Positions 13,924 to 40,504 of a DNA stretch of 48,339 nt are shown in pieces. Each line of letters starts with the position of its first letter. The first letter of the stretch is position 1. The stretch comes from Rhodoferax sp. (GTDB lineage: Bacteria > Pseudomonadota > Gammaproteobacteria > Burkholderiales > Burkholderiaceae_C). A model generated the notes under the pieces. It had not been told where the DNA came from. It was given only the letters and a program-made list of their open reading frames with translations, and did not search any database. Where the stretch lies: positions 1 through 48,339 of the forward strand of contig NZ_JAGPBB010000021.1 in assembly GCF_018063565.1 (NCBI RefSeq), written 5' to 3'. The translations under genes were made by a program, and so were the position numbers.

Positions 13924-14661
13924 TCAAATCATCGCGCCATTGATCGAAATCACTTGGCCCGAAATGTAGGCGGCCTGGTCAGATGCCAGGAAAGCGACCA
14001 GATCAGCCACCTCGTGGGCCTGACCAACGCGTTGCATGGGCACCAGTTTTTTGACGGTCTCGGCATCAAATGCGCCTTCAATCATGTCAGTGGCAATCAG
14101 GCCCGGTGCCACCGCATTGACGGTGATGCCACGGCTGGCCAGCTCCAGCGCCAGCGATTTGCTGGCCGCATGCAGGGCACCCTTGGCAGCCGAATAGTTC
14201 ACCTGACCGCGGTTGCCGGTGATGGCTGCCACGGATGAAATGCTGATGATGCGCCCCCAGCGCTTGCGGATCATCGGCATCGTCAGCGGTTGGGTCACGT
14301 TGAAAAAACCGTTCAGCGACACATCAAGCACCCGGTCCCATTGCGCGCCGTTCATACCGGGGAACACCACATCGTCGTGGATGCCAGCGTTGTTCACCAG
14401 GATCTGAATGGCACCCTCACTCAGCAGGGTTTCCAGTGCGGTCAGCGTCGCCAAGCGGTCGGTGACATCAAAAACCACAGATTCGGCGCTCCCGCCCTGT
14501 GCAATGATGCGGGCCACCAGCGCCTGCGCCTTGTCCAGCGCCCGGTGGGTGTGCACGATGACATGCTGGCCGTCTGCCGCCAGGCGCTGGCAAATGGCAG
14601 CCCCAATGCCGCCGCTTCCGCCCGTGACCAGGGCTCTTTTTTTGTCGTTGCAGGGTGTCAT
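13924..14661 (-). CDS. 3-ketoacyl-ACP reductase of the APE pathway (FabG-like)
   Basis: A short-chain dehydrogenase of 245 residues that would reduce the 3-keto group of the growing ACP-bound polyene with NADPH (ApeQ-type role). The cofactor motif TGGSGGIG is at residues 13-20, NNAG follows, and the catalytic Ser-Tyr-Lys set is in SISSVAAITG..GQVNYSAAKG. The C-terminus SGQVISINGAMI is FabG-like. The start overlaps the dehydratase stop by ATGA, and the gene is the last pathway gene on this strand; the GntR regulator follows 24 bases later. Confidence 0.9.
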   Translation of the reverse strand: MTPCNDKKRALVTGGSGGIGAAICQRLAADGQHVIVHTHRALDKAQALVARIIAQGGSAESVVFDVTDRLATLTALETLLSEGAIQILVNNAGIHDDVVFPGMNGAQWDRVLDVSLNGFFNVTQPLTMPMIRKRWGRIISISSVAAITGNRGQVNYSAAKGALHAASKSLALELASRGITVNAVAPGLIATDMIEGAFDAETVKKLVPMQRVGQAHEVADLVAFLASDQAAYISGQVISINGAMI

Positions 14662-15092
14662 AAAGTCTGCCTGTCAAGCACCACCGAAGCCCGGCCGTCC
14701 ATCAGGCAGCGGCCCGCGTGGTGCAGCCTAAATTGGTACAACACCAGTCGCTCATCGCCCGACAGACGTTCGGCGCTCACCTGCAGTGGGCCGTCCAGGT
14801 CGTCAAGTCGTTGCACCTGCAGGTTCAGGCTGCGCACGCTGGTCAGGTAGCCTTGGCTGGGTGGGCTGCTGGGCCGGGTCAGCAACGCACCATGCACCGC
14901 CATCGCCTGCGCAGCGTATTCCACCCCGGACACCGCACCCAGCCGGTCGGCGTTGCGCAAGGGGTGGTCGCGGGCAAAGTGGCTGGCGGTTTCACACACG
15001 ATGTGTTGCTCACTCCAGGCCAGCACCGTGTCGAGCAGACACATGCGGCCCTGGTGCGGAATGTGCGCCGCAATCCATTGCCGGTCTAACAC
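14658..15092 (-). CDS. Hotdog-fold 3-hydroxyacyl-ACP dehydratase (ApeP-like)
   Basis: A 144-residue hotdog protein with the FabZ-like opening AAHIPHQGRMCLLD and a helix VSGVEYAAQAMAVHGAL that carries the acidic active-site residue. It would remove water from the 3-hydroxyacyl-ACP to give the trans double bond. It lacks the FabZ HFPGxPxxPG block, so it belongs to the separate ApeP-like lineage. It overlaps the KS-like gene upstream and the ketoreductase downstream. One of three dehydratase-like proteins in the cluster. Confidence 0.82.
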   Translation of the reverse strand: MLDRQWIAAHIPHQGRMCLLDTVLAWSEQHIVCETASHFARDHPLRNADRLGAVSGVEYAAQAMAVHGALLTRPSSPPSQGYLTSVRSLNLQVQRLDDLDGPLQVSAERLSGDERLVLYQFRLHHAGRCLMDGRASVVLDRQTL

Positions 15093-15901
15093 GTTTGTAG
15101 GTCCAACTTGAGTTGCATCGGAGCCAGATAGTCAAGCACCACACCACCTGTTTGACCCAAAGCCAGCCGCTGCAACAGCGGCAGGGCGCGCAAGGCCGGT
15201 ATCTGCAGGCGCAAGGTTTCCAGTGCGGCATCGTCCATGACATCGGCGGCGAGCGTGCTGGTCGTCAGCGTGACGCGGGCGAGAGACGATGCGTTGCGCT
15301 GCGGACTCAGCAGCAGCGCCACACCGCCACAGTCCGGCGTGTTGCGTTTGGCGTGCAGCGGTTGAGGGTATTCGCTGTCGTAGGCGACCAGCAGCACCGG
15401 CTGGCCGTCGCACACCACCTGGGTCAGCGCATCCAGCAGTCCGGCGCCAAAACTGGCATCAAAAGCCGCGATCACCTGGCAGGGTGCCATGCTGTGGGTG
15501 GCGATACCCCAGTAGCCGGCGGCGGCGTTGTGCACTGAATTGTGAAAACGGGTGGGCGAAATCTGTCGGTCGTCACTGGCGAGTTGCTCGCACAAGGCAT
15601 GGCAGTTGTGGCCATCGGCTCCAGACGAGGCAAACACCGTGGCCAGACTGGCGGCATCAGCACCGGCGTGCTCCACCGCTTGCAAGCCCACGCCCAGACA
15701 CAGTTTGATCACGCGGCTGGCGCGTCGGCGCTCGGCCGTTGGCAGCACCGCAGGCGCTGGCAGCACGCTGGCGGCTGCGGCATAGTCCTGCTCGCCGCGC
15801 AACACCGCGCGCGCGCTGGGCCAATCGGGCAGACCGGGGGCGATCAGGCCGATGCCGTCGATCCATGCCTGCGGAGCGCGGGTCGCCGTGGCTGCGCTCA
15901 T
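15086..15901 (-). CDS. Ketosynthase-like partner protein (ApeC/chain-length-factor type)
   Basis: A 271-residue protein with only the N-terminal half of a thiolase fold (beta-ketoacyl synthase-like, Ketoacyl-synt_2 type). The expected nucleophile segment of a KS, TACSSS, is replaced by AAFDASFGAGLL without a cysteine at that place, and the HGT and GHT histidine motifs are absent. In characterised APE systems a protein of this kind pairs with the KS encoded next to it. Here the KS gene overlaps its start by ATGA, which fits a KS/partner heterodimer. Catalysis by this protein alone is not expected. Confidence 0.8.
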   Translation of the reverse strand: MSAATATRAPQAWIDGIGLIAPGLPDWPSARAVLRGEQDYAAAASVLPAPAVLPTAERRRASRVIKLCLGVGLQAVEHAGADAASLATVFASSGADGHNCHALCEQLASDDRQISPTRFHNSVHNAAAGYWGIATHSMAPCQVIAAFDASFGAGLLDALTQVVCDGQPVLLVAYDSEYPQPLHAKRNTPDCGGVALLLSPQRNASSLARVTLTTSTLAADVMDDAALETLRLQIPALRALPLLQRLALGQTGGVVLDYLAPMQLKLDLQTC

Positions 15902-17088
15902 GGGCTGACTCCCAAAATCAGGCTGCAGTTGCTGCCGCCAAAACCAAACGAATTGCTCAGCGCCGTTCGCAATTGCGCCGGTGCACTTTGGTGTTGATAG
16001 CGGATGGCCATCGCGGGGTCGAGCACCTGGGTTCCCGGGCTGCCGGGCAAAAGGCTCTCTTGGAGCGCCAGTGCGCAGACCAAGGCTTCAACTGCTCCCG
16101 AGGCACCCAGCGTGTGGCCGGTAGCCCCCTTTGTCGAGTTGCATGGCACGCGTTCGCCAAAGAGAGCTGCCACGGCCTGGCCCTCGGCCGCATCATTGGC
16201 TGGTGTGGCAGTGCCGTGCAGGTTGATGTAGTCGATGTCTGCCTCAGCCAGCCCAGCGCTGCGCAAGGCGGCCGCCATGGCCAGTTGCGCGCCCAGCCCT
16301 TGCGGGTGTGGAGCCGACATATGGTACGCATCGCTTGATTCACCCACGCCCAGCAGCAGCACCGACGCGGGGGCGGGCGTGTCAGCCCGCTCCAGCAGTG
16401 CAAAGGCAGCCGCCTCACCGATCGAGATACCGTCACGCGCGGTGTCATAGGGCCGACACGGTTGCGACGAAGTCAATTGCAGCGAGGCAAAGCCGTACAG
16501 GGTGGTCAGACACAGCGAGTCCACCCCGCCCACAATTGCCGCGTCGATGTGGCCCAGCGCGATCTGACGCGCCGCTGCGGCAAACACCTTGGCGCTGGAT
16601 GAGCAGGCGGTGGACAGCGTCATTGCCATGCCCGTGAGGCCGAAATAGTCGCGGGTGAATTCGGTCAGCGAAAACGCGTTGTGGGTGCTGCGGTAGTTGA
16701 AGCTGTCGGGCAAGGCGCCATTGGCCGGGTCGCGTGCGCGGTAAGCCAGCTCGGTTTGAAAAATCCCGGCTGTGCTGGTGCCCAGAAAAACCCCGACGCG
16801 ATCGCGACCGTGATGCGCCACGGCTTCACGCACCCGCTGCGCAAAGCCATCGGTTTCCAGCCCCATTTGGGTCAGCCGGTTGTTGCGGCAGTCGTAGTGG
16901 CGCAGCGGTTCAGGCAACACCTGTGCGTCCACCCCGGTCACTTCACCGACCCAGGTGGGGAGTTCCACCGATTCGAAACGGCAGGGTGTCAGACCCGAGC
17001 GCCCACTGCGCAGGGCGTCGCGGGTCGCCTCCAGCCCCCGGCCCAGGCAGGTGGTCAAGGTGGTGGCGGATAGCAGCAAAGGTGGCAC
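15898..17088 (-). CDS. Beta-ketoacyl-ACP synthase (ApeO-like)
   Basis: A 396-residue FabF-class condensing enzyme for polyene elongation. The nucleophile is Cys162 in LSTACSSSA; the two histidines lie in NLHGTATPANDA and KGATGHTLGASG. The end SNSFGFGGSNCSLIL is standard. The start is a GTG at 17088, without a strong ribosome site. It is the first gene of the detached four-gene block KS / KS-like / dehydratase / ketoreductase, each overlapping the next. The 102 bases upstream contain AAGATCAGGATCTT (17107-17120), a small palindrome of unknown meaning, and no clear promoter. Confidence 0.9.
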   Translation of the reverse strand: MPPLLLSATTLTTCLGRGLEATRDALRSGRSGLTPCRFESVELPTWVGEVTGVDAQVLPEPLRHYDCRNNRLTQMGLETDGFAQRVREAVAHHGRDRVGVFLGTSTAGIFQTELAYRARDPANGALPDSFNYRSTHNAFSLTEFTRDYFGLTGMAMTLSTACSSSAKVFAAAARQIALGHIDAAIVGGVDSLCLTTLYGFASLQLTSSQPCRPYDTARDGISIGEAAAFALLERADTPAPASVLLLGVGESSDAYHMSAPHPQGLGAQLAMAAALRSAGLAEADIDYINLHGTATPANDAAEGQAVAALFGERVPCNSTKGATGHTLGASGAVEALVCALALQESLLPGSPGTQVLDPAMAIRYQHQSAPAQLRTALSNSFGFGGSNCSLILGVSP

Positions 17089-17190
17089 AGGCGAACTCGA
17101 GTGATAAAGATCAGGATCTTAGTCGCTCGCCAAGGCGGACTACATCGCGCCCAGCTTCAACGGTAACGGTTATCTCACTCGCTTTGAGAG

Positions 17191-19686
17191 CTACTGTCCA
17201 AAAAATATCTTCTGCATCGTGAGCGTTGCGCTCTCCGACTCAAGTATTGCGCTGCATGAAATGCCAGCGGCGTCCGCGATCGCTGTGTTGCTGACTCCGG
17301 TTCGAGTTGCCCTGAGTGTGGCGTTCTCACTAAAAGTGAAGTCATAACTGACATTGCAGGCTCGATGAAACCTGGTGCCCTTGATTTTTGCCGTTGACCC
17401 TGTCAAAGACCCGCTAAGCAAGTCAAACAAATCCAGTTGCGGTACGACCAGAGCTCCACCGGAAGCGGCCCTAAAACTAATGCTTGTGTTGTCATTGAAA
17501 TAGTTTGTCGCAATCATGTCCATACTATCCTGGTGCAAAGACAAATAATTGCCATCAGTCCAGGCATAGATCCCGTCATAAACACCTGTCGCAGCCACTG
17601 GTGGCGACACGGGCGCGCCAAAAGCGATCCTTTGCATGGTGCGTGTGGGGCTCTCGTTGGCAACCATTGCGCTGCACGAAATACCTGCCGCGTTTGCCAT
17701 CGTGGTGTTGCTCACGCTGGTTCTGGTTGCGGTGATTGTGGCATTGGCACCAAAGACAAAGTCATAACTCACGTTGCAAGCCCTGTGAAACATGGTGCCG
17801 CTGATCTTTGCCGTTGTCCCAGTGACGGTCCCAGCAAGAAGATCAAACAGATCGAGCTGTGGAATGGATAAAGTGCCGCCAGTGGTTGCCGTAAAGCTAA
17901 AAGCTCCGTTGTCATTGAAATAGATGGTCGCAATCACCTTCGAGGCATCCTGGTGCAGCGACAAATAGTTGCCATCGGACCACAAGTAGATTCCGTCATA
18001 TAGACCCACTGCAGAACCGGTTGACACGCTCACAGTCGCGCTTGCAACACTGCTCTTGCCGCCGCCATTGACACCTTGCACGGTGTAAGTGGTGTTGCTT
18101 GAGGGCATCACCGTACAGGTGGACGATGTTGTTCCAGCACAGGTGCCACCTGTCCATGTGTAGCTTGCTGCAATCGGGTTGCAATTGGCGGTGAGGGTTG
18201 AACTTGCGCCCGCGTTGATCAGTGCCGGATTGGCGCTCAGCGTACAAACAGGAGCGTTCGATGTATCGCCGTTCACTTCGTCGGCGCCAATGTCGTTGGC
18301 ACCAACGCGCGGCTGCCGGTCGATGTCCTGCGCTACTTGCGCCAGCGTTTCACCTTTGTCTATGGCCGGGCTGCCGGGCAGCAAGTGGCCATCGGTCGTG
18401 ACGCTGATCGCGCCGGTCAGGCTGCGGGCATCCACCATGTTCTGGGCGCGCCACTGCTCCAGCGTGCCACCATCGGCCAGCGTGCTGCCGGGACGATTGT
18501 CTGCAAAGTTGCAGGCACCAAGTGCGTTGTAAAACCAGTTGCTGTCCATGCCTGCACTGCCTTCGAGACCGTACAAGCCCGCAGCAGTGATCTCATTGGC
18601 CCATCGGATGCGCGCGCAGTCGCCACCGTTTTGAATAATCAGGTTGTTGCGGATGATGGGGTTGATATTGGCGGGCCGCCCGGCAGAAGGTTCAAAGTCC
18701 TGCAAGGTGACACCAAAGTAAATGGCGGCGTGCCCGGCCGATGCTGTGTTCACTACGGTGTTGTTCGCCACCACCGCGTCTTTGGCGGCGTACAGGCCAA
18801 TGCCAGCGTAACCGGTGTCGCGCACCACGTTGTTGATCACGGTGCCGCGAATGCTCTCGTAGTAGCGGGGGTTCAGCACGGTGTCAAAGTAGTCCGGACT
18901 GGTGTCAAAGCCTACCATGATGCCACCCAGACCGGTGCGCTCAATACGGTTGCGTTGAACGGTGACATCCTGCGCCCCACCTTTGAAGTACAAACCGGTG
19001 GTGGCAATGTCGTGGATGTAGTTGTCTTCCACCAGCATGCGGCTGCCATTCACGTTGTCGATGCCTTCTGCGTTTTTGTCGTCCAGTGGCGTGCCTTCGG
19101 GGTAAATGCGGCCCGTGTTGTAAATTTCGCAGCGGCGGATGGTGATGCCATCACTCTTGGGCGTGATCTTGATCGCATCGCGCCCGGTGTCGTGAATCTT
19201 GCAGTCTTCCAGAATAATGTTGGACGCTCCCAAGCCCTGCCGGTTGTCCCGCGAGTCCCAGTCGGTCTGCATGAACACACCGTACAAGTTCCCACCCGTT
19301 ATCTCAAGTCTGGAAAGGCTGCTGCCGGAAGCTGAGGGGTCAATCTGCACGCAAACACCGTCTTGCAGCGTAATGGGGCAGGAGATGACCGCCCATTCCC
19401 CTTCAAAAGAACGCAGCGTGAGCGGCACTCGCAGGCGCACCTCGTTCTCGTTGAACACGTTGTTTCCAACTGGCCCTCGCAAGGTGACGGTGTCGCCCGA
19501 TCTCACCAGGCCGCGCGCCGGGTCAAGCAAAAAGCCCAAGCTCTTAAAGGGTGTTGCCACGCTCCCATTGCCCGCAACATCACTACCCAGCGGTGACACA
19601 AACCACTCGGTGGCATGGGCCGAAAAGCAACTCGTGGCAAACAAGGCTGAGGCACAGACTGCGCGCCTGATTTTGAAGCAGTTCAT
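17191..19686 (-). CDS. Secreted parallel beta-helix protein with Ig-like domain and two DGIY repeats
   Basis: An 831-residue secreted protein. Signal peptide 1-25 (cleavage near SAHA-TEW). Residues about 27-470 form a right-handed parallel beta-helix, with many DNxIHDI, RRCEIYNTG and NNxVxDTGYAGIGLY turns and the closing GSPAIDKG...GANDIGADE. Residues about 478-556 form an Ig/PKD-like domain with paired cysteines (SANPALINAGASSTL, TYTVQGVNGGGKS). Residues 561-690 and 701-830 are two copies of one domain, about 69 percent identical by hand count. GAGGAA seven bases before the ATG supports the start. Beta-helix proteins often bind or cut polysaccharide, but no lyase or hydrolase residues are claimed. 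Its relation to the flanking pathway is unclear; it looks inserted. Confidence 0.85.
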   Translation of the reverse strand: MNCFKIRRAVCASALFATSCFSAHATEWFVSPLGSDVAGNGSVATPFKSLGFLLDPARGLVRSGDTVTLRGPVGNNVFNENEVRLRVPLTLRSFEGEWAVISCPITLQDGVCVQIDPSASGSSLSRLEITGGNLYGVFMQTDWDSRDNRQGLGASNIILEDCKIHDTGRDAIKITPKSDGITIRRCEIYNTGRIYPEGTPLDDKNAEGIDNVNGSRMLVEDNYIHDIATTGLYFKGGAQDVTVQRNRIERTGLGGIMVGFDTSPDYFDTVLNPRYYESIRGTVINNVVRDTGYAGIGLYAAKDAVVANNTVVNTASAGHAAIYFGVTLQDFEPSAGRPANINPIIRNNLIIQNGGDCARIRWANEITAAGLYGLEGSAGMDSNWFYNALGACNFADNRPGSTLADGGTLEQWRAQNMVDARSLTGAISVTTDGHLLPGSPAIDKGETLAQVAQDIDRQPRVGANDIGADEVNGDTSNAPVCTLSANPALINAGASSTLTANCNPIAASYTWTGGTCAGTTSSTCTVMPSSNTTYTVQGVNGGGKSSVASATVSVSTGSAVGLYDGIYLWSDGNYLSLHQDASKVIATIYFNDNGAFSFTATTGGTLSIPQLDLFDLLAGTVTGTTAKISGTMFHRACNVSYDFVFGANATITATRTSVSNTTMANAAGISCSAMVANESPTRTMQRIAFGAPVSPPVAATGVYDGIYAWTDGNYLSLHQDSMDMIATNYFNDNTSISFRAASGGALVVPQLDLFDLLSGSLTGSTAKIKGTRFHRACNVSYDFTFSENATLRATRTGVSNTAIADAAGISCSAILESESATLTMQKIFFGQ
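17197..18006 (-). repeat. Tandem 130-codon duplication within the beta-helix gene
   Basis: Copy 1 occupies 18006-17617 and copy 2 occupies 17586-17197, separated by 10 codons. Each is exactly 130 codons and begins GxYDGIYxWxDGNYLSLHQD. Shared blocks include YFNDN, PQLDLFDLL, FHRACNVSYDF and AAGISCSA, with 90 of 130 residues identical by hand count. Each copy has two cysteines (in RACNV and ISCSA) that could form a disulphide. The domain is not one I recognise. Confidence 0.85.
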
Positions 19687-20134
19687 TCAAAATTCCTCAA
19701 TTGAAAATGAATAAGGCGGCAAACGACAGATATCAGGCAGGCATCTCAATCACACGGGAACAAGCATCACACCATGCAGCGCTCTGCGTTCCAGGTCGAT
19801 ACCCTCGATTCGCTGCTTCACCTGCCGAACTTGGCAGATCGACCACACAAAGTCCTGAATTGGCGAGCGATATCCGGTGTGACAGATCTGCCTTGAGCAG
19901 CGTTCATCATCACCAAAAAGAACGAATTGATGCGGATCTTGCCATGGAATGGGATCTGATGCTCACACTGCAAACTTGCTTCTCGAACTCGGCAGATTGA
20001 ATTCAGCGGTGGTCGTCATCAGGATCACAAACCATTCGACCCAATGTCCGCTTCAGTCCCCAATGGACTTGAAGTGGACCTCGGATTCAAGTCAAGTACT
20101 CAAGAGGGTCTGGAATCCAGAAAATGGCTGAATC
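19687..20134. other. Intergenic stretch, no supported gene
   Basis: This 448-base stretch between the beta-helix gene and the transposase remnant looks less GC-rich than its surroundings. It holds only short frames with no recognisable protein, including a 40-codon frame from an ATG at 19774 that lacks a good ribosome site. Its right part runs directly into the IS3-like orfA start, so it may include the left end of a lost element; no terminal inverted repeat could be fixed by eye. Confidence 0.5.
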
Positions 20135-20215
20135 ATGAGCGAAACGAAGAAACGCAAAATTCAGACGCCAGAGTACAAAGCCAAGGTCGTTGGATCTCAG
20201 ATTACAGGCGTTTGA
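20135..20215 (+). pseudogene. Remnant of IS3-family transposase OrfA (N-terminal fragment)
   Basis: The frame starting at the ATG at 20135 reads MSETKKRKIQTPEYKAKVVG and stops after 26 codons. The first 18-20 residues closely follow the start of IS3-family OrfA proteins (pattern M.ETKKRKIYTPEFKAKV). After that the similarity ends and the rest of OrfA and all of OrfB are missing. The fragment runs into the 3' end of the small gene on the other strand. It is evidence of past transposition within the stretch that splits the APE operon. Confidence 0.7.
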
Positions 20216-20465
20216 CGCCTGACACATAGCCGATCAGGACGCCATCAGCATACAACGCGCCTTCGGGGGCGCCAGCCTCGGCGTAGAACTCCAGTTCTCG
20301 CTCCACCATGGCCCGTGGCCGCGGATTTGGAACGGCAGCGAGTCTGCGGGCAATTCTGGTCAGAACCAGGCCGGCGGCCCGCAAAACTGCGGCCATCAGT
20401 AGGCGGGCCCGATATCCCATTTCGGGTGCAACAGGGGCATAACTCCAATACAAGTTCTTTATCAT
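20202..20465 (-). CDS. Hypothetical protein, 87 residues
   Basis: Not recognised. The ATG at 20465 has a strong ribosome site, AAGGAGA, eight bases upstream, which is the main reason to accept it. The product starts MIKNLYWSYAPVAPEMGYRA, has a short moderately hydrophobic segment (LLMAAVLRAAGLVLTRIARRL, basic at its end) and an acidic stretch MVERELEFYAEAGAP. It could be a small membrane-associated protein. Its last codons contain CAGGCGTCAAACGCCTG, a perfect 7-base stem, and overlap the transposase remnant on the other strand, so the C-terminus may have been altered by that element. Confidence 0.6.
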   Translation of the reverse strand: MIKNLYWSYAPVAPEMGYRARLLMAAVLRAAGLVLTRIARRLAAVPNPRPRAMVERELEFYAEAGAPEGALYADGVLIGYVSGVKRL

Positions 20466-20797
20466 GATAATTTCTCCTTGCCCACTGTGCGTTGAGTTGT
20501 CAACTTCGTGGGCGCACTGGGTCTGTGTAGATTTCAGTCATTCGTTTCACGGGAATTCGCCGGGATACAGATGTGCGCTCAGCGGCGTCAGTCGAATCAC
20601 TTAAGCGGACTCGGCTGACGTCGCCCCTGGCGGTGCGACATCGTTGACGCATTTCAGGCTGCGGACAACATGGATGCGTTGTGGGTTGATGGGTGATCCT
20701 GGTTCGCCAGAAATCTGTGAGGAGATCCGACAAACTTGCCCTAATGATAAACAAAATATTATCTTGAGCAAGCAATTGTTGCTCAAGTGCGCCAGCG
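20466..20797. other. Intergenic stretch between two hypothetical genes
   Basis: These 332 bases carry the leader and ribosome site of the 87-residue gene at the left end and a likely terminator of the 189-residue gene at 20750-20786. In between, short frames on the minus strand give no recognisable protein and have no ribosome site. No promoter stands out clearly. Confidence 0.5.
20750..20786 (-). terminator. Probable intrinsic terminator of the 189-residue hypothetical gene
   Basis: Read on the minus strand, an 8-base stem TTGAGCAA / TTGCTCAA (20786-20779 and 20771-20764) with a 7-base loop is followed by GATAATATTTTGTTT. It begins 12 bases after the stop codon of the minus-strand gene ending at 20798. 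The stem is perfect but only moderately GC-rich and the T tract is interrupted, so strength is uncertain. Confidence 0.5.
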
Positions 20798-21367
20798 CTA
20801 CTTCTTTTGTTTCAAAGGCGCAACACTGGCTTGTGTCTTGCGCCACAGTGCGAAAGCCTCGTCAGCCGCCGACGGGGTTTGGGGCGTATTGGGCGGGGAA
20901 CTGCTTGCTGAGCGTGTGCTCGCTGGAGCGGGCGTCAATGCTTCACCGAGTAAGTCAAGCAGGCGAGTGCGCGCACGCTGCGGGTGGCGTCGGTAGTAGG
21001 TGAGGACCAGTCCGACGATAAAGCGTTCGTCATCATCTTGCGGACCTGGACTGTCATTGCCCGTAGCGGGCAGGTGGCCGTCAGGGTCGGCGGGGGTGAG
21101 TTGGGTGGCATGGACCTGATCCATCCAGCCATGGGGTTTTTGGCACAGTTGCTCAAACTGCCGTGCCAGTCGCTCGCCGATCTGCCGTGATCGACTCTTG
21201 ATTTGACTCCAGTAACTCGGCTGAACCTGAACCCGCAGTGCAAACCGGCCTTCCAATCCCCGCAACGTTGCCGCGTCTGGGTGCTTCACCGTGTTGTGGA
21301 CGAACTCATCAAACAGCGCCAAAGCGTTCTGGAAACGTATTTGGGCAAGATCCGGCGTACTGTTCAT
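20798..21367 (-). CDS. Hypothetical protein with a phage-repressor-like helix-turn-helix segment
   Basis: A 189-residue protein without a firm family. Residues about 50-90 (YWSQIKSRSRQIGERLARQ, then LCQKPHGWMDQ) resemble the segment found in XRE-type repressors, where a GExxARxxE helix precedes a P.GWLD motif. This suggests DNA binding but does not prove it. The rest is polar, with a Pro/Ser-rich tail (about 150-175). The ATG at 21367 starts MNSTPDLAQIRFQNALALFDEF. It is followed by the probable terminator at 20750-20786. Confidence 0.6.
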   Translation of the reverse strand: MNSTPDLAQIRFQNALALFDEFVHNTVKHPDAATLRGLEGRFALRVQVQPSYWSQIKSRSRQIGERLARQFEQLCQKPHGWMDQVHATQLTPADPDGHLPATGNDSPGPQDDDERFIVGLVLTYYRRHPQRARTRLLDLLGEALTPAPASTRSASSSPPNTPQTPSAADEAFALWRKTQASVAPLKQKK

Positions 21368-32473: not shown

Positions 32474-32572
32474 TTGAGATTATTTTCATGGTTGGACAGT
32501 GCGGCAGGCTGTGTCTACCCTGTCAGGAGCGCACTGCAAAAAGGCGTGGTGGCCGACTTTTACCCCCAAAAA

Positions 32573-32578
32573 ATTATA
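32573..32578 (-). promoter_or_regulatory. Candidate -10 box of the minus-strand APE operon
   Basis: On the minus strand this reads TATAAT, a perfect -10 hexamer, 100 bases before the ACP start and in the divergent gap between ACP and PAP2 genes. A -35 element is weak (GGTTGC-like at 32599-32594, spacing 15), so an activator may be needed. No other candidate is as good in this gap. Confidence 0.45.
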
Positions 32579-32634
32579 CGCTGGCACAATCGCGCAACCC
32601 CTATTTCAGGCGCCGCGACCGCGCCGTTTCCTCC

Positions 32635-33282
32635 ATGAAACCCCAATGGCCACAACGCATTGCAGACCGCCTGGTCCGTTACTGGCCGCTCAAGGCCCTT
32701 GGTACCTCGCTGTTCATGGCGCTGTTTTTCTGGGCTTATTTTCAGGTGCTGCACCACCCTGATGGGGTGCCGTGGGTCATGCCCAGGATCTGGCTCGACG
32801 ACTGGGTCGCGTTCACGCCGTATTCTTTCCCGATCTATGCATCACTGTGGGTGTATGTGTCACTGCCGCCAGCATTGATGGGCAACCTGCGGGCGCTGAT
32901 CCTGTATGGCTTGTGGGTTGGACTGATGTGCTTGCTGTGTCTGGCCCTGTTCTGGTTTTTCCCGACGCAGACCCCCACGGTTGACATCGACTGGCGCCAC
33001 TATCCAGCCCTGGCGATGATCAAGGGTGTGGACGCTGCGGGCAATGCCTGTCCGTCGCTGCACGTGGCGTCGGCGGTGTTTTCAGCCTGCTGGCTGGGGC
33101 GCATCCTGTGGCAGTTGCACACGCCCAACAGCCTCACCTGGATGAGCTGGGTGCTTTGTCTGGGCATCGCCTGGTCCACCATGGCGTCGTTGCAGCATGT
33201 CGCGCTCGACGTGATCAGCGGGGCAGTCGTGGGCCTGGTCTTTGCGGCGGCATCGCTGCGCCACATCCGCAATACCGTCTGA
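32635..33282 (+). CDS. PAP2-family membrane phosphatase
   Basis: A 215-residue membrane protein with about five or six helices and the PAP2-type motifs: GNACPSLHVASAVF (in place of PSGH) and STMASLQHVALDVISGAVVG (SR-like...H...D). The PSLH form is typical of the inositolphosphotransferase-like branch that acts on polyprenyl or glycerolipid phosphates. The ATG at 32635 (MKPQWPQRIA) starts just before the first helix. It diverges from the ACP operon and is convergent with the PlsC-like gene. A role in removing or swapping a phosphate headgroup of the APE lipid is possible but unproven. Confidence 0.82.
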   Translation: MKPQWPQRIADRLVRYWPLKALGTSLFMALFFWAYFQVLHHPDGVPWVMPRIWLDDWVAFTPYSFPIYASLWVYVSLPPALMGNLRALILYGLWVGLMCLLCLALFWFFPTQTPTVDIDWRHYPALAMIKGVDAAGNACPSLHVASAVFSACWLGRILWQLHTPNSLTWMSWVLCLGIAWSTMASLQHVALDVISGAVVGLVFAAASLRHIRNTV

Positions 33283-33323: not shown

Positions 33324-34067
33324 TCAGAGGCGCAAACCTTCATCAATCGAGCGGGTCATCTGCGCCTCGTAGTAGCGCTGCAGGTGGCGCGCGGTATCGG
33401 CGCACGCACCTGTGGCGGGCAGTTGCGCGCCGATACGGGCTTGATAGATCAGTGGAAACCGGGGCGGGCGAAACAGCGTCCAGCCCTTGCTCAGGTAGGG
33501 TGAGTTGGTGCGGATCAGGAGGGTCTGCAGCGGTTGCCCGGTCCGCTTGGCAATCAAAGCCACGCCGGGCTTGATGTCATTGACGGGCTGGCGCGTGGTG
33601 CGGGTGCCTTCCGGGAACACCAGCAAATGCGGCCCCCTGAGCACCGTGCTGCTGGCGCTGCGCAGCATCTGGCCGGGTTTGTGGTTGGACACATAACCCG
33701 CCAGATAGGCACCCGCACCAAACAGAATGTTGCTGCCGATGCTGGCCTTCATCAGGCAGACGCCGCGCCGCACCCTTGAAATCACCAGGAACACGTCGAT
33801 CATGCTGGGATGATTGGCCACCAGCACCAGTCCCGTTTGCTGATTCAGCGCATCGAGCTGGCGCAAATCGAGCTGCATCAGACCGCTGCGCTCGGCGCCG
33901 GTCAAAAAAACGCGAAACACGCCGCTAATCAGCCCCTGCACCAGCGGCTCGCGAAAGCGGCGCGGCGTGGCCAGCAGTGGCAGCACCGCCACATTGCCGG
34001 CCAACAGCATCAGGCCGAGCCACAGCAGCATCACATAAAACAGGCCAAGTTGACGAATTCGGACCAT
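33324..34067 (-). CDS. PlsC-like 1-acylglycerol-3-phosphate acyltransferase
   Basis: A 247-residue acyltransferase with an N-terminal helix (LGLFYVMLLWLGLMLLAGNVAV) and the catalytic NHPSMID (Asn85-Asp91, HxxxxD), the block FPEGTRTTRQ and GVALIAKRTGQP. It acylates lysophosphatidate-like acceptors at the membrane. The ATG at 34067 has GAGG six bases upstream; a TTG at 34109 is rejected. It lies between the two divergent halves of the cluster, with its promoter region shared with ACP 2, so it probably supplies or modifies the lipid part of the pigment. Confidence 0.87.
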   Translation of the reverse strand: MVRIRQLGLFYVMLLWLGLMLLAGNVAVLPLLATPRRFREPLVQGLISGVFRVFLTGAERSGLMQLDLRQLDALNQQTGLVLVANHPSMIDVFLVISRVRRGVCLMKASIGSNILFGAGAYLAGYVSNHKPGQMLRSASSTVLRGPHLLVFPEGTRTTRQPVNDIKPGVALIAKRTGQPLQTLLIRTNSPYLSKGWTLFRPPRFPLIYQARIGAQLPATGACADTARHLQRYYEAQMTRSIDEGLRL

Positions 34068-34222
34068 CCAAGCCTCACAGGCACCCACAAAAAACGGACC
34101 CACAGTCAAACACCAGGCGGTCGTGGCGCGGTGGTCTTGAACGCAAGGTTACTACAGTTTTCGTCGCAGAATGTCCCCCGCAGACCCGCCCTGCGTGCCG
34201 TCAGATATCGCCGGTGGCTCAT

Positions 34223-34251: not shown

Positions 34252-34533
34252 ATGCTCGACAACATCATCAAAGAGTACTTGATCAACACGGCAGGGGTTG
34301 ATCCGGAGAAATTCACCCAGCCTGACCTGACCGTGGCTGACCTGCAGCTGGATTCTTTGGGCCTGCTGGAGATGTTGTTTGAAGTGGAAGACAAGTTTGG
34401 TCTGCAAATCCCCGAGCCAATGCGCTACCTGAGCATGAGTTTTACCGACATGGTGGCCGACATCGAGGCGTCGGTGCGAGCGCATCACAACGGGCAACTG
34501 CCGGTGGTGGATGCCGCACCTTCGGTGGGCTGA
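34252..34533 (+). CDS. Acyl carrier protein 2
   Basis: A 93-residue ACP with Ser35 in DLQLDSLGLLEM as the phosphopantetheine site. It is followed without any gap by the KS gene (TGA then GTG). APE systems use two ACPs, one thought to receive the starter and the other the extender; which is which here is not clear. The ATG at 34252 has GAGG seven bases upstream. The C-terminal tail is Pro/Ala-rich. Confidence 0.9.
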   Translation: MLDNIIKEYLINTAGVDPEKFTQPDLTVADLQLDSLGLLEMLFEVEDKFGLQIPEPMRYLSMSFTDMVADIEASVRAHHNGQLPVVDAAPSVG

Positions 34534-35793
34534 GTGAACCGGGTCCTGATCACCGGGCTGGGGATGATCACCCCGCTGGGCAGCGACAGCAGCAGCAGCT
34601 TTGCCGCGGCGCTGCAAGGTCAAAGTGCCATCCGGCCAGCCCCGACCGACATCACCGGCGGCTTGTCCAACCTGCTGATGGCGGCGGTGGCGGCAGATCC
34701 CGCCAGCCTGCTCGACAAAAAATTTGCCTCCCTTGACCGGGCGACCCAGTTTGCCCTGGTAGCCGCTGACGAGGCCCTGAAACACGCCAGTATCAGCAGC
34801 CATCCGGCTGACAGCGCCCGTTTTGGTGTCTTTGCCGGCATCGGTTTTGGTGGCGCGCACACGCTCGACGGCCTGTACGCCCGTTATTTTGCGGCGCTCA
34901 CGGCACCCAGCCATGCCCACAAGAACCCCACCGTCATGCACCCCTTGTCGGTGCCGCGCATGATGGCCAATGCGGCCGCGGCCGCCGTCTCCATGCACTA
35001 CGGTCTGGCCGGTGCCAGCAACACCTACAGTGTGGCCTGTGCCTCGTCTGCGGTGGCGGCGGGTGAGGCGTTTCGTGCCATTCGGCACGGCTACCTCGAT
35101 GCTGCCGTGGTGCTTGGCACCGAATCCATGCTGACGCCGGGTTCGCTGATGGCGTGGAACGCGCTGCGGGTCATGGCCAAACCCGACAGCCGCAACCCGG
35201 CACACAGTTGTCGCCCCTTCTCGCTGGACCGCAATGGATTTGTGCTGGGCGAGGGTGCCGCAGCGCTGGTGCTGGAAAGCCAGGCACGGGTGCAACAGCG
35301 CCAGGCGCCGGCGCTGGCAGAGCTGGCCGGCTATGGCTGCAGCAGTGATGCCCAGCACCTGACCAACCCGAGCGTGCAAGGACAAGTGGCGTCCATGCAG
35401 CAGGCGCTGGACATCGCGGCGCTCGGTGCCGGTGACATTGGGTACCTCAATGCCCATGGCACCGCCACGGACGCGGGTGATGTGATCGAAACCCAGTCCA
35501 TCCGTGCCGTGTTTGGTGCCGTCGCCGACCGGTTGGCGGTGAGTTCGACCAAGGCGGTGCATGGTCACCTGATTGGTGCCGGTGGTGCGCTTGAGCTGGC
35601 GCTTTCCATCATGGCCATGCGCAGTGGTTCATTGCCGCCCACGGCCCACCTGGAGCATCCGGATCCTCGCTGTGACCTGGACTACGTGCCCCTGCAGGCA
35701 CGCCACCACTGCCGGATCGACGCGGTGATGTCAAATTCGTTCGCCTTTGGTGGCAGCAACGCCACGCTGATCGCGCGCCGGTACGTGTCGTGA
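34534..35793 (+). CDS. Beta-ketoacyl-ACP synthase II-like (ApeR/FabF-like)
   Basis: A 419-residue condensing enzyme starting from GTG directly after the ACP stop. Nucleophile Cys169 is in YSVACASSAVA; histidines lie in NAHGTATDAGD and KAVHGHLIGAGG. The C-terminus SNSFAFGGSNATLI is standard. It is a stand-alone complete KS, different from the KS/KS-like pair at 15086-17088, and may do the first condensation or another step. It overlaps the dehydratase gene by GTGA. Confidence 0.92.
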   Translation: MNRVLITGLGMITPLGSDSSSSFAAALQGQSAIRPAPTDITGGLSNLLMAAVAADPASLLDKKFASLDRATQFALVAADEALKHASISSHPADSARFGVFAGIGFGGAHTLDGLYARYFAALTAPSHAHKNPTVMHPLSVPRMMANAAAAAVSMHYGLAGASNTYSVACASSAVAAGEAFRAIRHGYLDAAVVLGTESMLTPGSLMAWNALRVMAKPDSRNPAHSCRPFSLDRNGFVLGEGAAALVLESQARVQQRQAPALAELAGYGCSSDAQHLTNPSVQGQVASMQQALDIAALGAGDIGYLNAHGTATDAGDVIETQSIRAVFGAVADRLAVSSTKAVHGHLIGAGGALELALSIMAMRSGSLPPTAHLEHPDPRCDLDYVPLQARHHCRIDAVMSNSFAFGGSNATLIARRYVS

Positions 35794-36299
35794 GCCCCGC
35801 GCAGATGCACTATCCGTTTGAGCTGGACCGGCCACAGATAGAGGCCCTGCTGCCACACCGCGGTGACATTTTTGTGTGCCAGCACCTGGTCATCCACGGT
35901 GCGCACAGTTTTGTTGGCAGAGCCAACTGGCCCTTGACCAATCTGATCATTCAAGGGCACTTTCCCGGCATGCCCGTGGTGCCGGGAGCCCTGCTGATTG
36001 AAACCGCAGCGCAACTCGCCGGTGCCGGTCTGCTCGCGGGCGACCCGTATGTCAGGTCGCTCACCGGTGATCTGGTGGGCGTGCTGGCATCGGTCAGGAA
36101 GTGTGTCTTCAAGCAACCGGTGCCGGCACAGTGCGACGTGGCGTTTGCCATCCAGTGTCGTCAAATGGCACCCATGGCCGTGCAGGTGCTCGCCACGGTC
36201 ACCGCGCAGGGGCTCGAAGCGGCACAACTCGACATCCTGATGGTGTACACCAGCAAAGGGCATTTGCTCAACGCATTGGGGTCACCGGTCAGCCCATAG
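35790..36299 (+). CDS. FabZ-like 3-hydroxyacyl-ACP dehydratase
   Basis: A 169-residue hotdog dehydratase with ALLPHRGDIFVCQ and the active-site block QGHFPGMPVVPGALLIETAAQLAG, holding His57 and Glu71. Unlike the other two hotdog proteins of the cluster it has the full FabZ signature. Its start is a GTG that overlaps the KS stop; the ATG five codons later is an alternative. It would dehydrate polyene intermediates or, less likely, replace housekeeping FabZ for this pathway. Confidence 0.87.
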   Translation: MSPAQMHYPFELDRPQIEALLPHRGDIFVCQHLVIHGAHSFVGRANWPLTNLIIQGHFPGMPVVPGALLIETAAQLAGAGLLAGDPYVRSLTGDLVGVLASVRKCVFKQPVPAQCDVAFAIQCRQMAPMAVQVLATVTAQGLEAAQLDILMVYTSKGHLLNALGSPVSP

Positions 36300-36370: not shown

Positions 36371-37729
36371 ATGGGCCAAACCAGGGTGCAATCAACCGCC
36401 AGTCAAGCTTCCAGCGACGCGCCACACCCGTGTGATGTGTTGGTGATTGGCGGCGGCCCGGCCGGCTCGACCGTTTCGAGTCTGCTCGCCGAACAGGGCC
36501 ACAAGGTGGTGCTGCTGGAAAAAAACCATCATCCACGCTTTCATATTGGCGAGTCCTTGCTACCGGCCAATTTGCCCCTTTTCGAGAAGATGGGCATTGC
36601 CGACGAGATCAAGGCCATTGGCATGTTCAAACCCGGCGCCGAGTTTGTCTCGCCCACCCACAACGCGAAACAGACCTTTCACTTTGCCGATGCCTGGGAC
36701 AAGTCCATGCCCCATGCCTATCAGGTCAAGCGCGCCGAGTTCGACCAGATTTTGATCCGCCATGCCGCGCGCAAGGGCGCTGAAGTGCTCGAAGGCTGCA
36801 AGGTGATGGCGGTGGACTTTTCAGCCGATGGTGGCGCGCGCGTCACCGCCCGGCATGACGACGAGCGCGAGCAGCAGTGGCAGGCGCGTTTTGTCGTGGA
36901 CGCCTCCGGGCGCGACACCTTTTTTGCCAACCGCTTCAAGATCAAGCAAAGCAACCCCAAACACAACAGTTCGGCGGTCTATGCCCACTTCACCCAGGCG
37001 CGGCGCAACGAGGGTCACGACGAGGGCAATATCACGATATTCTGGTTTGACCATGGCTGGTTCTGGTTCATTCCGCTGACCAATGGCACCACCAGTGTCG
37101 GCATGGTGACCTGGCCCTACCACATCAAGACCCGCGGCCAGCGCACGCTGGAGCAGTTTCTGATGGACAACATTGCGTCCAGCCCGGCCTTGAGCGCACG
37201 ACTGCAAGACGCCACCCGGGTCAGCCGGGTCGAGGCCACCGGCAATTTCTCGTATGTGTCTGAGCGAAATCACGGCACCAACTATCTGATGCTGGGGGAC
37301 GCTTACGCCTTCATTGACCCGGTTTTTTCCTCCGGCGTCTGGCTGGCCATGAACAGCGCGGTGATCGGTGCCGAGGCCATCCACACCTGTCTGACCGCCC
37401 CGGCCCGCTCGGGGGCTGCACTGGCGCGTTTTGACCGCCTGATGCGCCACGGGCCGCGCGAATTCTCGTGGTTCATCTACCGCGTCACCAACCCCATCAT
37501 GCGTGACTTTTTCATGCATCCGAAAAACGTGTTTCGGGTCAAGGAAGCGCTGTTGTCAGTGCTGGCCGGCGACATTTTTGGCAAAACGCCGATCTGGCGC
37601 TCACTGCTGGTGTTCAAGATGCTGTACTACAGCGCCAACATCCTGCAACCCAAACGCGCCTTCATGGCCTGGCAGCAGCGCCGCTTCAATATCCGCAAAG
37701 TCGATGACGCCGTGGCGTACAACGCATGA
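36371..37729 (+). CDS. Flavin-dependent halogenase (phenolic/xanthomonadin type)
   Basis: A 452-residue FAD-dependent protein. The FAD-binding GGGPAGS is at residues 27-33, IGESLLP at 59-65 as in phenol and pyrrole halogenases, a lysine (Lys87 in GMFKPGAEF) stands where the catalytic lysine is expected, and the halogenase motif WxWxIP is intact at residues 230-235 (WFWFIP). The second flavin motif LMLGDAYAFIDPVFSSG follows. It should use FADH2 and chloride or bromide to halogenate the aryl head or the polyene. The ATG at 36371 is used; frames further upstream overlap the dehydratase. Which halide is used is not visible. Confidence 0.88.
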   Translation: MGQTRVQSTASQASSDAPHPCDVLVIGGGPAGSTVSSLLAEQGHKVVLLEKNHHPRFHIGESLLPANLPLFEKMGIADEIKAIGMFKPGAEFVSPTHNAKQTFHFADAWDKSMPHAYQVKRAEFDQILIRHAARKGAEVLEGCKVMAVDFSADGGARVTARHDDEREQQWQARFVVDASGRDTFFANRFKIKQSNPKHNSSAVYAHFTQARRNEGHDEGNITIFWFDHGWFWFIPLTNGTTSVGMVTWPYHIKTRGQRTLEQFLMDNIASSPALSARLQDATRVSRVEATGNFSYVSERNHGTNYLMLGDAYAFIDPVFSSGVWLAMNSAVIGAEAIHTCLTAPARSGAALARFDRLMRHGPREFSWFIYRVTNPIMRDFFMHPKNVFRVKEALLSVLAGDIFGKTPIWRSLLVFKMLYYSANILQPKRAFMAWQQRRFNIRKVDDAVAYNA

Positions 37730-37780: not shown

Positions 37781-38554
37781 ATGACTGAGCCTTTTCGCTT
37801 TGCATCGACCAGCCATCTGGTGCTGATCCCCAGTTACAACCCCGGCCCCCAGGTGCTCGACACCGTGCGTCAGGCACGCCAGTTCTGGAACCCGGTCTGG
37901 GTGGTGGTGGACGGCAGCACCGACGGCACCGATCTGCAACTCCAGGCCCTGGCGCAGACCGATGCCGGCCTGCGGGTGATGGTGTTGCCCCGCAACCAGG
38001 GCAAAGGTTCGGCGGTGCTGCACGGCATCACCCAGGCGGCGCAGGCGGGCTTTACGCACGCCCTCACGATGGATAGCGACGGCCAGCATCCGGCGCAGGC
38101 GATCCCGGCTTTCATGGCAGCGTCGATCCAGAAGCCCTCGGGCATGGTGCTGGGCAAACCGGTTTTTGGCGCAGAAGCACCGGCACTGCGGGTGAACGGG
38201 CGCAAGGTGTCCAATGGCTGGGCCAACCTCGAAACCCTGTGGATGGGCATCGGGGACTCGCTCTACGGCTTTCGTGTTTATCCGATCAAGCCGCTGATCA
38301 AGGTCATGCAGGGCAACCCCTTCATGCGCCGTTTCGACTTTGACCCCGAAGCGGTGGTGCGCCTGTGCTGGGCCGGTGTGGTGCCAGTCAATATCGATGC
38401 GCCGGTGCGTTACCTGTCGGCCGCCGAAGGTGGCGTCTCGCACTTCAACTACCTGCGCGACAACGTGCTGCTGACCTGGATGCACACGCGCCTGTTTTTG
38501 GGTTTTGTACTGCGCCTGCCCCTGCTGATCTGGCGCCGCGTCACCGGAGAATGA
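37781..38554 (+). CDS. GT2-family glycosyltransferase
   Basis: A 257-residue GT-A fold protein of the GT2 family. VLIPSYNPG and VVVDGSTDGT bind the nucleotide sugar, LTMDSDGQHP carries the metal-binding DxD-type residues, and ALRVNGRKVSNG and the following acceptor loop are typical of polyprenol-phosphate or lipid glycosyltransferases. A hydrophobic C-terminal segment (RLFLGFVLRLPLLIW) may attach it to the membrane. It lies 51 bases after the halogenase and probably glycosylates the pigment or its lipid anchor. Confidence 0.85.
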   Translation: MTEPFRFASTSHLVLIPSYNPGPQVLDTVRQARQFWNPVWVVVDGSTDGTDLQLQALAQTDAGLRVMVLPRNQGKGSAVLHGITQAAQAGFTHALTMDSDGQHPAQAIPAFMAASIQKPSGMVLGKPVFGAEAPALRVNGRKVSNGWANLETLWMGIGDSLYGFRVYPIKPLIKVMQGNPFMRRFDFDPEAVVRLCWAGVVPVNIDAPVRYLSAAEGGVSHFNYLRDNVLLTWMHTRLFLGFVLRLPLLIWRRVTGE

Positions 38555-38555
38555 A

Positions 38556-39314
38556 TTGACTCAACCCGCCGCGCGTACCAGCGCCCTCAAGCCCGACCAC
38601 CGCATGGACCCCTACTTCACCTCCGAAGAGGGTCGGCGCAGCCTGACGCAGGCGATGTTCAACCAGGCCGCACCTGGCTATGACAACGCCGAGAGTCTGA
38701 CCGCGCTGGGCAGCGGTGCCTGGTACCGGCGTGAGGTGCTGCAACGCAACGGCCTGGCTGCGGGCATGACCCTGCTTGACGTGGCAGCCGGCACCGGACT
38801 GGTGACCGTGCCCGGGCACGCCATCGTTGGGCAGCAAGGCCGGGTACTGGCGCTGGATCCCTCACCCGGCATGCTGGCCGAGCTGCGCAAGAAGATTCAG
38901 GTCGAGACCATCGAAGCCTATGCCGAGGCCATTCCACTGCCTGACGCCCAGGTTGATTTCATTTCAATGGGCTACGCGCTGCGCCATGTGGGTGATTTGA
39001 ATCTGGCGTTTGCCGAGTACCTGCGTGTGTTGCGCCCGGGTGGTCGTGTCTGCATCATGGAGATCAGCCGTCCGCGCCACGCCTGGGCGCGTGCCCTGCT
39101 GGGTTTTCACATCAAGGCGGTGGTGCCACTGCTGGCGCGCCTGACGCGCCGGCATGCCGATGTGCAACGCCTGTGGGAGTATTACGGCGACACCATCGAG
39201 GCGGCGCTGGAACCCGAGCTGATTCTGGACGCCTTGCGTCGCGCCGGTTTTGCCCATGTGGCGTGTTCGGTGACCCTGGGCATTTTTCGCGAGTACACCG
39301 GACACCGGCCGTGA
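38556..39314 (+). CDS. UbiE-like class I SAM-dependent methyltransferase
   Basis: A 252-residue methyltransferase: motif I is LLDVAAGTGLVTVP, an acidic residue in LALDPSPGML, and SMGYALRHVGDL and LRVLRPGGRVCIMEISRP as in UbiE/COQ5. GGAGA six bases upstream supports the TTG start at 38556 (MTQPAARTSA); the ATG at 38604 is an alternative. Its stop overlaps the antiporter GTG. It could methylate the aryl ring in the pathway, or be a quinone methyltransferase; position in the operon favours the former. Confidence 0.83.
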   Translation: MTQPAARTSALKPDHRMDPYFTSEEGRRSLTQAMFNQAAPGYDNAESLTALGSGAWYRREVLQRNGLAAGMTLLDVAAGTGLVTVPGHAIVGQQGRVLALDPSPGMLAELRKKIQVETIEAYAEAIPLPDAQVDFISMGYALRHVGDLNLAFAEYLRVLRPGGRVCIMEISRPRHAWARALLGFHIKAVVPLLARLTRRHADVQRLWEYYGDTIEAALEPELILDALRRAGFAHVACSVTLGIFREYTGHRP

Positions 39315-40504
39315 ACACCACCGAGGTTTTCCTGATGGCGATGCTGATCATTTTCAGCATCCCCTGGCTGATCTGGCGCTTTGCCAAGACCGACTACTTT
39401 GCCCCGTTGGTGGTGGTGCAGATCATCGCCGGCATTGTGCTGGGTCCCGGTGTGCTGGGCCGCTGGTTCCCCGAGTACTACCAGTTTGTCTTTACACCCG
39501 TCGTGGTGCAGTCATTGAACGGCATCGCCTGGTGGGCGGTGATGCTGTTTGTCATGATCGCCGGTGTGGAGCTGGACCTCAGACAGGCATGGCAACACCG
39601 GCGCGAAAGCGCCATCACCGCCGGATTCGCCCTGGGCGCACCCCTGCTGCTGGGTTGTGCGGCAGCGCTTGTACTGCTCGGTTTTGACGGCTGGGTCGGC
39701 CGCCAGGCGCAGGGCTGGCAGTTTGTGGCGGGCATCGGCATGGCCTGTGCGGTCACCGCCTTGCCGATACTGATCCTGCTGATGGAAAAGCTCGATCTCC
39801 TGCGCCAACCGCTGGGTCAGCGTATCCTGCGCTACGCCAGCCTGGACGACATCGCCATCTGGGGTGTGCTGGCGCTGATCCTGATGGACTGGACGCGCAT
39901 GGGCAAACAACTGGCTTTTCTGCTGGGCTTTGTTGTACTCGGTCTGCTCTATCGCCGCTTGATGGCCAAGCTCGCTGAGGCCGACCGCTGGTATCTGGCG
40001 CTGGTCTGGCTTGCCTTGTGTGGCCTGGGTGCCGACTGGGCTGGCCTGCATTTCATGGTGGGCGCTTTTCTGGCGGGTGCCATCATGGACGCCCACTGGT
40101 TCAACCAGAACCAGCTCGACCAGTTGCGCCACCATGTGTTGCTGGTCATGATGCCGGTGTTCTTTCTCTCCACCGGGCTGCGAACCAACTGGGCCGTTGG
40201 TGGTGTCGAGGTTTTTGCGGCCGCGGCGCTGTTGCTGCTGGTGTCGGTGGCGGGCAAGCTCATCGGTGTGCGTCTGGCAGGCTGGCTGCTGCGCTGGGCA
40301 CCCGGTGAAGCCTCGGTGATCGGCTGGCTGCTGCAAACCAAAGCCCTGATCATGATCATTTTTGCCAACATCCTGCTGGACAAACAGTTGATCACCAGCG
40401 AAACCTTCACAGCCTTGCTGCTGATGGCGGTGGCCAGCACCATGTTGACCGTGCCGATGGTCGAGAAAAAAACAAGAAAATTAGCCTCCAGCCCAATTAG
40501 ATAG
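39311..40504 (+). CDS. CPA2-type cation:proton antiporter (KefB-like core)
   Basis: A 397-residue membrane protein with about twelve helices of the Na+/H+ exchanger family. Typical blocks are IIAGIVLGPGVLG, VMLFVMIAGVELDL, and GMACAVTALPIL. It has only the membrane part, without the RCK/TrkA domain of full KefB. The GTG at 39311 overlaps the methyltransferase stop, so it is coupled to the pathway operon. The last nine or so residues (RKLASSPIR) are encoded by repeat copy C. A role in energising or supporting pigment export is speculative. Confidence 0.85.
   Translation: MNTTEVFLMAMLIIFSIPWLIWRFAKTDYFAPLVVVQIIAGIVLGPGVLGRWFPEYYQFVFTPVVVQSLNGIAWWAVMLFVMIAGVELDLRQAWQHRRESAITAGFALGAPLLLGCAAALVLLGFDGWVGRQAQGWQFVAGIGMACAVTALPILILLMEKLDLLRQPLGQRILRYASLDDIAIWGVLALILMDWTRMGKQLAFLLGFVVLGLLYRRLMAKLAEADRWYLALVWLALCGLGADWAGLHFMVGAFLAGAIMDAHWFNQNQLDQLRHHVLLVMMPVFFLSTGLRTNWAVGGVEVFAAAALLLLVSVAGKLIGVRLAGWLLRWAPGEASVIGWLLQTKALIMIIFANILLDKQLITSETFTALLLMAVASTMLTVPMVEKKTRKLASSPIR

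Follow-up and report, generated by a model that had tools for sequence, protein, structure and literature searches.

The pigment cluster and its gene content

Which pathway is encoded around a flavin-dependent halogenase gene in a Rhodoferax genome, and does that gene mean that the product is halogenated? We examined a contig of 48,339 nucleotides from Rhodoferax sp. (RefSeq assembly GCF_018063565.1, contig NZ_JAGPBB010000021.1; its whole length is here called the window), in which a first-pass annotation had placed an aryl polyene (APE) cluster like that for xanthomonadin at 13924-40504. Our comparisons bear this out: the cluster is very probably an APE pigment gene set of the xanthomonadin/arcuflavin type, probably horizontal in origin and mosaic in build, and its pigment looks like a yellow, membrane-bound aryl polyene. 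The cluster is real, well conserved and of a kind already known; the halogenase is no cause for surprise, but the mosaic construction and the lack of a detected starter enzyme deserve mention.

The assignment to this type is supported by homology, active-site residues and gene order. The ketosynthase (KS) at 15898-17088 is of the ApeO type, with best PDB matches to 6qsp_A (E 1e-77) and 7f28_B (E 3e-74) and FabF next (1e-49), and 7f28_A and 6qsp_B are the sole PDB matches (E<=1) of the ApeC-type chain-length factor (CLF) at 15086-15901. Both entries are KS/CLF complexes in the PDB, 6qsp being, we take it, the Xenorhabdus ApeO:ApeC complex. In the alignment, Cys/His/His/Lys are present in this KS and in a third KS, and the KS histidine columns are empty in the CLF. 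Also present are an AMP-ligase, a ketoreductase (KR), ApeI- and ApeP-type dehydratases (DHs; the ApeP and ApeI Pfam models score below cut-off), acyl carrier proteins (ACPs), both with the DS motif, and LolA, MMPL and acyltransferase genes for export and attachment. The halogenase lies near a family 2 glycosyltransferase (GT2) and a KR-DH-CLF-KS block, as in the xanthomonadin/arcuflavin type, and no pathway open reading frame (ORF) is interrupted by a stop.

The features are listed below. Percentages given without a partner are the best identities in Hydrogenophaga-type clusters (L027, L028, L030 and L031 with L158-L161, L027 being a metagenome-assembled genome labelled Betaproteobacteria); G418 and G325 are genomes of the same family.

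13924-14661, minus: FabG-type KR (ApeQ/ArcH-like); Pfam adh_short; 49% to E. coli ApeQ; 82%
14658-15092, minus: ApeP-like DH (ArcI position); Pfam ApeP-like E 4.8e-4, below cut-off; 72%
15086-15901, minus: KS-like CLF (ApeC/ArcJ); Ketoacyl-synt_2; 29% to ApeC; 79%
15898-17088, minus: KS (ApeO/ArcK); 41% to ApeO; 79%
17089-23841, no strand: 6.75 kb insert with a beta-helix protein, a transposase-like stub, ORFs without assigned function, an ABC1 kinase and a ChrR cupin
23842-24564, minus: S-adenosylmethionine-dependent methyltransferase (ArcM position); Methyltransf_23; 64%
24561-25361, minus: polysaccharide deacetylase (ArcN-like); Polysacc_deac_1 E 1.8e-26; 71%
25358-26068, minus: alpha/beta hydrolase-like protein (ArcO position); Hydrolase_4 below cut-off; 70%
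26076-28418, minus: MMPL exporter (ApeM/ArcP); MMPL; 78%
28415-28999, minus: LolA-like carrier (ApeL/ArcQ); LolA_3 E 2e-21; 76%
28984-29889, minus: LpxL-type acyltransferase (ArcR position); Lip_A_acyltrans; 79-81% in four Hydrogenophaga-type clusters
29886-30191, minus: ApeI-like DH (ArcS position); FabA above and ApeI-like below cut-off; 37% over 59 aa to ApeI; 64%
30184-31518, minus: aryl-AMP ligase (ApeH/ArcT); AMP-binding E 1.1e-17; top NCBIfam model 4-coumarate-CoA ligase, below cut-off; 26% to ApeH; 75%
31515-32195, minus: COG4648-type membrane protein (ApeG/ArcU); 29% over 143 aa to E. coli ApeG; 45%
32192-32473, minus: ACP1 (ApeE/ArcV); PP-binding, LDSID motif; 43% to ApeE; 77%
32488-33282, plus: PAP2-family phosphatase; PAP2 E 1e-8; 61%
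33324-34109, minus: PlsC-type acyltransferase (ApeD-like), apparently of a grafted lineage; Acyltransferase E 2e-12; 31% to ApeD; 70% to G418/G325, 37% to Hydrogenophaga
34252-34533, plus: ACP2, apparently grafted module; PP-binding; 75% to G418/G325, 43% to Hydrogenophaga
34534-35793, plus: third KS, FabF-like, candidate ApeR equivalent, same module; 34% over 421 aa to ApeR; 75% to G418/G325, 40% to Hydrogenophaga
35790-36299, plus: third DH, FabZ-like, same module; FabA domain above cut-off; 74% to G418/G325
36371-37729, plus: flavin-dependent halogenase (ArcA-type by synteny); top PDB matches halogenases; 80%
37781-38554, plus: GT2 (ArcE); Glycos_transf_2; 39% to ApeJ-type protein; 85%
38556-39314, plus: UbiE-type methyltransferase; Ubie_methyltran E 2.5e-27; 79%
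39311-40504, plus: Na+/H+ exchanger (ArcG); Na_H_Exchanger E 1.8e-29; 84%

Every gene named in the first-pass annotation (two ACPs, KS, KS-like protein, KR, three DHs, AMP-ligase, LolA, MMPL, LpxL, halogenase, GT2 and two methyltransferases) is present by Pfam, but its list had overlooked the deacetylase, the ArcO-like hydrolase, the COG4648/ApeG-like protein, PAP2, PlsC and the Na+/H+ exchanger. Within its span, 17089-23841 most likely holds no pigment machinery. In blastp of 26 window proteins against the E. coli APE locus (L168; E<=0.1), 12 matched E. coli APE proteins (KR, CLF, KS, MMPL, LolA, ApeI-like DH, AMP-ligase, ArcU, ACP1, PlsC, third KS and GT2); the LpxL-type acyltransferase also matches the locus, at 29% over 303 aa. 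The adjoining genes at 8932-13899 encode a TRAP transporter (DctP/Q/M), a mandelate-racemase-like enzyme and a GntR regulator, probably a separate locus of sugar-acid type.

The halogenase and its neighbourhood

The top PDB matches of the halogenase (8zop, 3e1t, ChlB4 7fco, 5buk and PltA 5dbj) are all halogenases, several of which, we assume, use carrier-bound substrates. K76 and the WxWxIP motif, which we take to be the hallmarks of flavin-dependent halogenases, are both present in the protein and invariant across the 23 rows of the alignment, which excludes L005, a sequence carrying an in-frame stop. Synteny with the published arc order, rather than direct sequence comparison, suggests that it corresponds to ArcA.

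At least 587 relatives were confirmed in reference genomes. In the 80 loci kept from these (up to 10 kb on each side, many ended by contig ends), GT2 was nearby in 69, PlsC in 67, KR in 52, and KS and CLF in 47 each, a recurrence that places the arrangement beyond chance; samples drawn with the halogenase give no share of APE clusters that bear one. Conversely, the APE clusters reached via the third DH (G418, G325, G608, G437, G192 and G253) showed no halogenase in the stretches fetched. Counting its own genome, the gene occurs in 24 of 200 genomes of the order (E<=1e-60) and 4 of 89 of the genus (E<=1e-40), and a plasmid search with it returned 36 records, 15 spanning most of the query. The order halogenase-XanB2-MipA-PlsC-GT2 of the arc clusters recurs in G111 and L040, which is the basis for the proposed correspondence to ArcA.

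The tailoring genes had been called an unusual set, a description that mostly does not hold: G111 and the Hydrogenophaga-type clusters share with the window the gene order halogenase-GT2-UbiE-type methyltransferase-Na+/H+ exchanger. We also rejected it on the grounds that the published Azoarcus arc clusters already contain a halogenase, a glycosyltransferase, an antiporter, one methyltransferase and a deacetylase (PMC3949708).

A probable mosaic of two lineages

For most cluster genes the identity to their counterparts in Hydrogenophaga-type clusters is 61-85%, the exceptions being ArcU (45%), PlsC (37%), ACP2 (43%) and the third KS (40%), and no counterpart of the third DH was found in the fetched stretches of four such clusters. 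Against G418/G325 the pattern is reversed, with PlsC, ACP2, third KS and third DH at 70, 75, 75 and 74% and the backbone genes at 37-76%; neither halogenase nor Na+/H+ exchanger was found in the G418/G325 stretches compared. ArcU (45% Hydrogenophaga, 52% G111) fits neither lineage well. The cluster hence looks like a mosaic in which one gene block was swapped in from a different APE pigment lineage, and it offers a natural test of how far ACP, starter KS and acyltransferase are interchangeable between APE lineages.

Relatives of the third DH occur, own genome included, in 4 of 300 order genomes and 15 of 399 family genomes (E<=1e-12); contexts were examined for the 14 family relatives other than G324, G330, G362, G445 and G610. 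The ACP2-KS-DH module lies inside or beside an APE backbone in G418, G325, G192, G253, G608 and G437; the divergent PlsC adjoins it in G192, G253 and a short contig of G159, and in G418/G325 a chorismatase stands between the two. The surroundings fetched for G535, G468, G344 and G347 showed no comparable APE backbone, and G655 showed the dehydratase alone. At L118, L119, L121, L123 and L128, four of the five relatives adjoin ACP2-KS relatives, with no APE backbone within the fetched stretch.

The window halogenase is closer to Hydrogenophaga (80%) than to its congeners (64-65%), which, together with its presence in so few genomes of the genus, favours horizontal acquisition of the cluster without proving it. 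In a tree of 106 halogenase rows (quick method, SH-like approximate likelihood-ratio support, SH-aLRT), the window gene sits with Hydrogenophaga rows, on forks that are not starred, and the three congeners bearing the gene group together elsewhere (support 100, starred).

A working model

In the inferred pathway, the AMP-ligase would charge an ACP with a hydroxybenzoate. Initiation of the chain would fall to the FabF-like third KS, acting like ApeR, and its elongation with malonyl units to the ApeO-type KS and the ApeC-type CLF, each beta-keto group being converted to a double bond by KR and dehydratases. The third KS, a putative priming KS, has FabF as its nearest match in the PDB; with Xenorhabdus enzymes in vitro, ApeR is reported to initiate and ApeO:ApeC to elongate (PMC8253772). 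The ring hydroxyl would be capped by the methyltransferase(s), and the LpxL/PlsC acyltransferases, GT2, LolA and MMPL exporter would join the polyene to a lipid and carry it to the outer membrane. The most likely substrate of the halogenase is an aryl or polyenoyl chain bound to a carrier, and halogenation of the product may depend on conditions, be incomplete or be absent altogether.

Weighing the assignment

Several observations weigh against this reading or parts of it. The ApeP-like DH, second ACP and both methyltransferases had no blastp match in the E. coli set (E 0.1), nor did the third DH in the same locus (E<=0.1). In the halogenase tree, the forks that place the window gene among Hydrogenophaga rows have SH-aLRT 86 and 93, neither starred, and no starred grouping with half the rows or fewer includes it. 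The third KS may be dispensable, since an E. coli apeR deletion still makes the main APE lipid (PMC8253772). Expression of the cluster is not assured, as the 6.75 kb insert splits it; chorismatase, UbiC and aromatic ammonia-lyase are all undetected in the genome; and arcuflavin, from a producer whose cluster has a halogenase gene, is halogen-free (C41H52O4; PMC3949708).

Is the pigment halogenated?

The first-pass annotation had predicted a halogenated pigment, which is not shown: the halogenase residues are kept and brominated pigments exist, yet the formula of arcuflavin means that halogenation does not follow from such a gene, and for the window pigment it is possible. We give slightly less than an even chance to the view that the pigment, as with xanthomonadin I, is regularly halogenated (brominated). 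This view would agree with the retained lysine and WxWxIP, with the solved halogenases nearest to the protein, with the Xanthomonas clusters that have the gene and pigments with 0-2 Br, and with a Lysobacter cluster that has neither the gene nor a brominated pigment (PMC3691225). A dibrominated pigment is also reported for Steroidobacter cummioxidans, its formula printed in the text as C27H28Br2O3 but in a table as C27H28Br2O2; the main text of that paper names no halogenase (PMC5979037). Arcuflavin argues against regular halogenation, and it would also fit an enzyme that in practice oxygenates the polyene or its ring as a flavin oxygenase, as might the numerous relatives throughout reference genomes; we consider such an oxygenase unlikely given the invariant halogenase lysine and WxWxIP. 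A halogenase gene is found in many proteobacterial aryl polyene clusters and is by itself no proof of a halogenated pigment; with the one published betaproteobacterial product found, arcuflavin, being halogen-free, the role of the enzyme is a clean question.

Starter supply

Searches of the genome for the XanB2-type chorismatase, a mark of the xanthomonadin/arcuflavin type, gave no match at E<=10, with none in the window, and its family model TIGR04444 gave none at E<=1 (a loose limit, at which 4 of 14 control genomes also gave matches below cut-off). Neither UbiC (control positive in E. coli) nor Lyase_aromatic, the aromatic ammonia-lyase (control positive in 5 of 14), had a match in the genome. 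With the assembly 92.8% complete and in 196 contigs, an assembly gap is the simplest reading of the missing starter enzyme. XanB2 is present in 49 of the 80 halogenase loci kept. Among 20 genomes examined, XanB2 was found in 12 (E<=1e-5) and UbiC in 6, both of them in G111 and G696. In the four Hydrogenophaga-type genomes XanB2 is on a different contig from the AMP-ligase and UbiC was not found, and the four congeners tested have UbiC, XanB2 not being found.

Neither gene was found in G000, G608, G694 (L045) and G700 (L067), four of those 20 genomes, all with APE genes. Ubiquinone requires 4-hydroxybenzoate; these cases may reflect assembly gaps, a divergent UbiC or an unrecognised route.

A bolder proposal is a chimaeric APE line in which the priming/attachment module of one APE lineage (PlsC, ACP2, the ApeR-like KS and the third DH) replaced its counterpart in a halogenase-bearing lineage and which, with both known hydroxybenzoate sources missing, uses a different or differently made starter to yield a new halogenated polyene; we regard this as improbable.

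The insert

The insert (17089-23841, 6753 bp) has a GC content of 0.578, compared with 0.644 and 0.648 on its flanks, and parts the KS from the methyltransferase, whose matches in L028 are only 60 bp apart. With no relatives of its beta-helix, ABC1-kinase and ChrR-cupin proteins in the compared stretches, we rejected it as a pathway component, and it is most likely not part of the pigment pathway; plasmid nucleotide searches with it gave no match. Its 831-aa right-handed beta-helix protein (17191-19686) ends in two similar units of about 110 residues each (YDGIY...SLHQD), a 26-residue stub ending in a stop (20135-20215) presumably resembles the start of an IS3-type transposase, and an ABC1/UbiB-type kinase overlaps a double ChrR-cupin protein at 21655-23798, an odd pair. 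That the cluster, insert-split, chorismatase-less and with replaced parts, is a decaying, non-functional remnant is very unlikely: the insert and the missing starter enzyme would suit it, but the pathway ORFs are free of stops, the checked residues are retained, cluster and chorismatase occupy separate contigs in the four nearest genomes of Hydrogenophaga type, and the window's own assembly is incomplete.

Comparison with known systems

The published Azoarcus BH72 gene list (PMC3949708) gives arcA halogenase, arcB chorismatase, arcC MipA-like, arcD acyltransferase, arcE glycosyltransferase and arcG antiporter; arcH-K as KR, DH, KS-like and KS; and arcM-V as methyltransferase, polysaccharide deacetylase, hypothetical protein, exporter, LolA, acyltransferase, DH, AMP-ligase, hypothetical protein and ACP. 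Insertion mutants in arcK and arcT are colourless. By this list the arc clusters share most window genes, including the halogenase, but differ in having two unlinked arc loci, separate dar genes, and a chorismatase and MipA-like gene beside the halogenase, and arcA-X as given there holds no third KS, second ACP, third DH, PAP2 or UbiE-type methyltransferase. The window, in contrast, has a single locus with an insert, in which chorismatase and MipA are missing; the halogenase-GT2-UbiE-Na+/H+ exchanger and KR-DH-CLF-KS blocks are both retained, in a different mutual order.

The Hydrogenophaga-type clusters, like the window, have no chorismatase beside the halogenase, but they carry MipA and another PlsC after it, place ArcU elsewhere, and have a distinct KS-ACP pair adjoining ACP1 (KS 39-40%, ACP 33-42%). 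The divergent PlsC and ACP2-KS-DH module of the G418/G325 and G192/G253 APE clusters are 70-75% and 54-69% identical to the window, G418/G325 differing by a chorismatase beside PlsC. The E. coli APE cluster likewise has two ACPs, three KS-type proteins, AMP-ligase, DHs, KR, GT2/acyltransferase, LolA and MMPL, whereas halogenase, deacetylase and Na+/H+ exchanger are not among its annotated genes. By its published description, the Xanthomonas xanthomonadin cluster resembles the window in its halogenase and KS/CLF and makes a chorismatase-fed aryl polyene (PMC3949708, PMC3691225).

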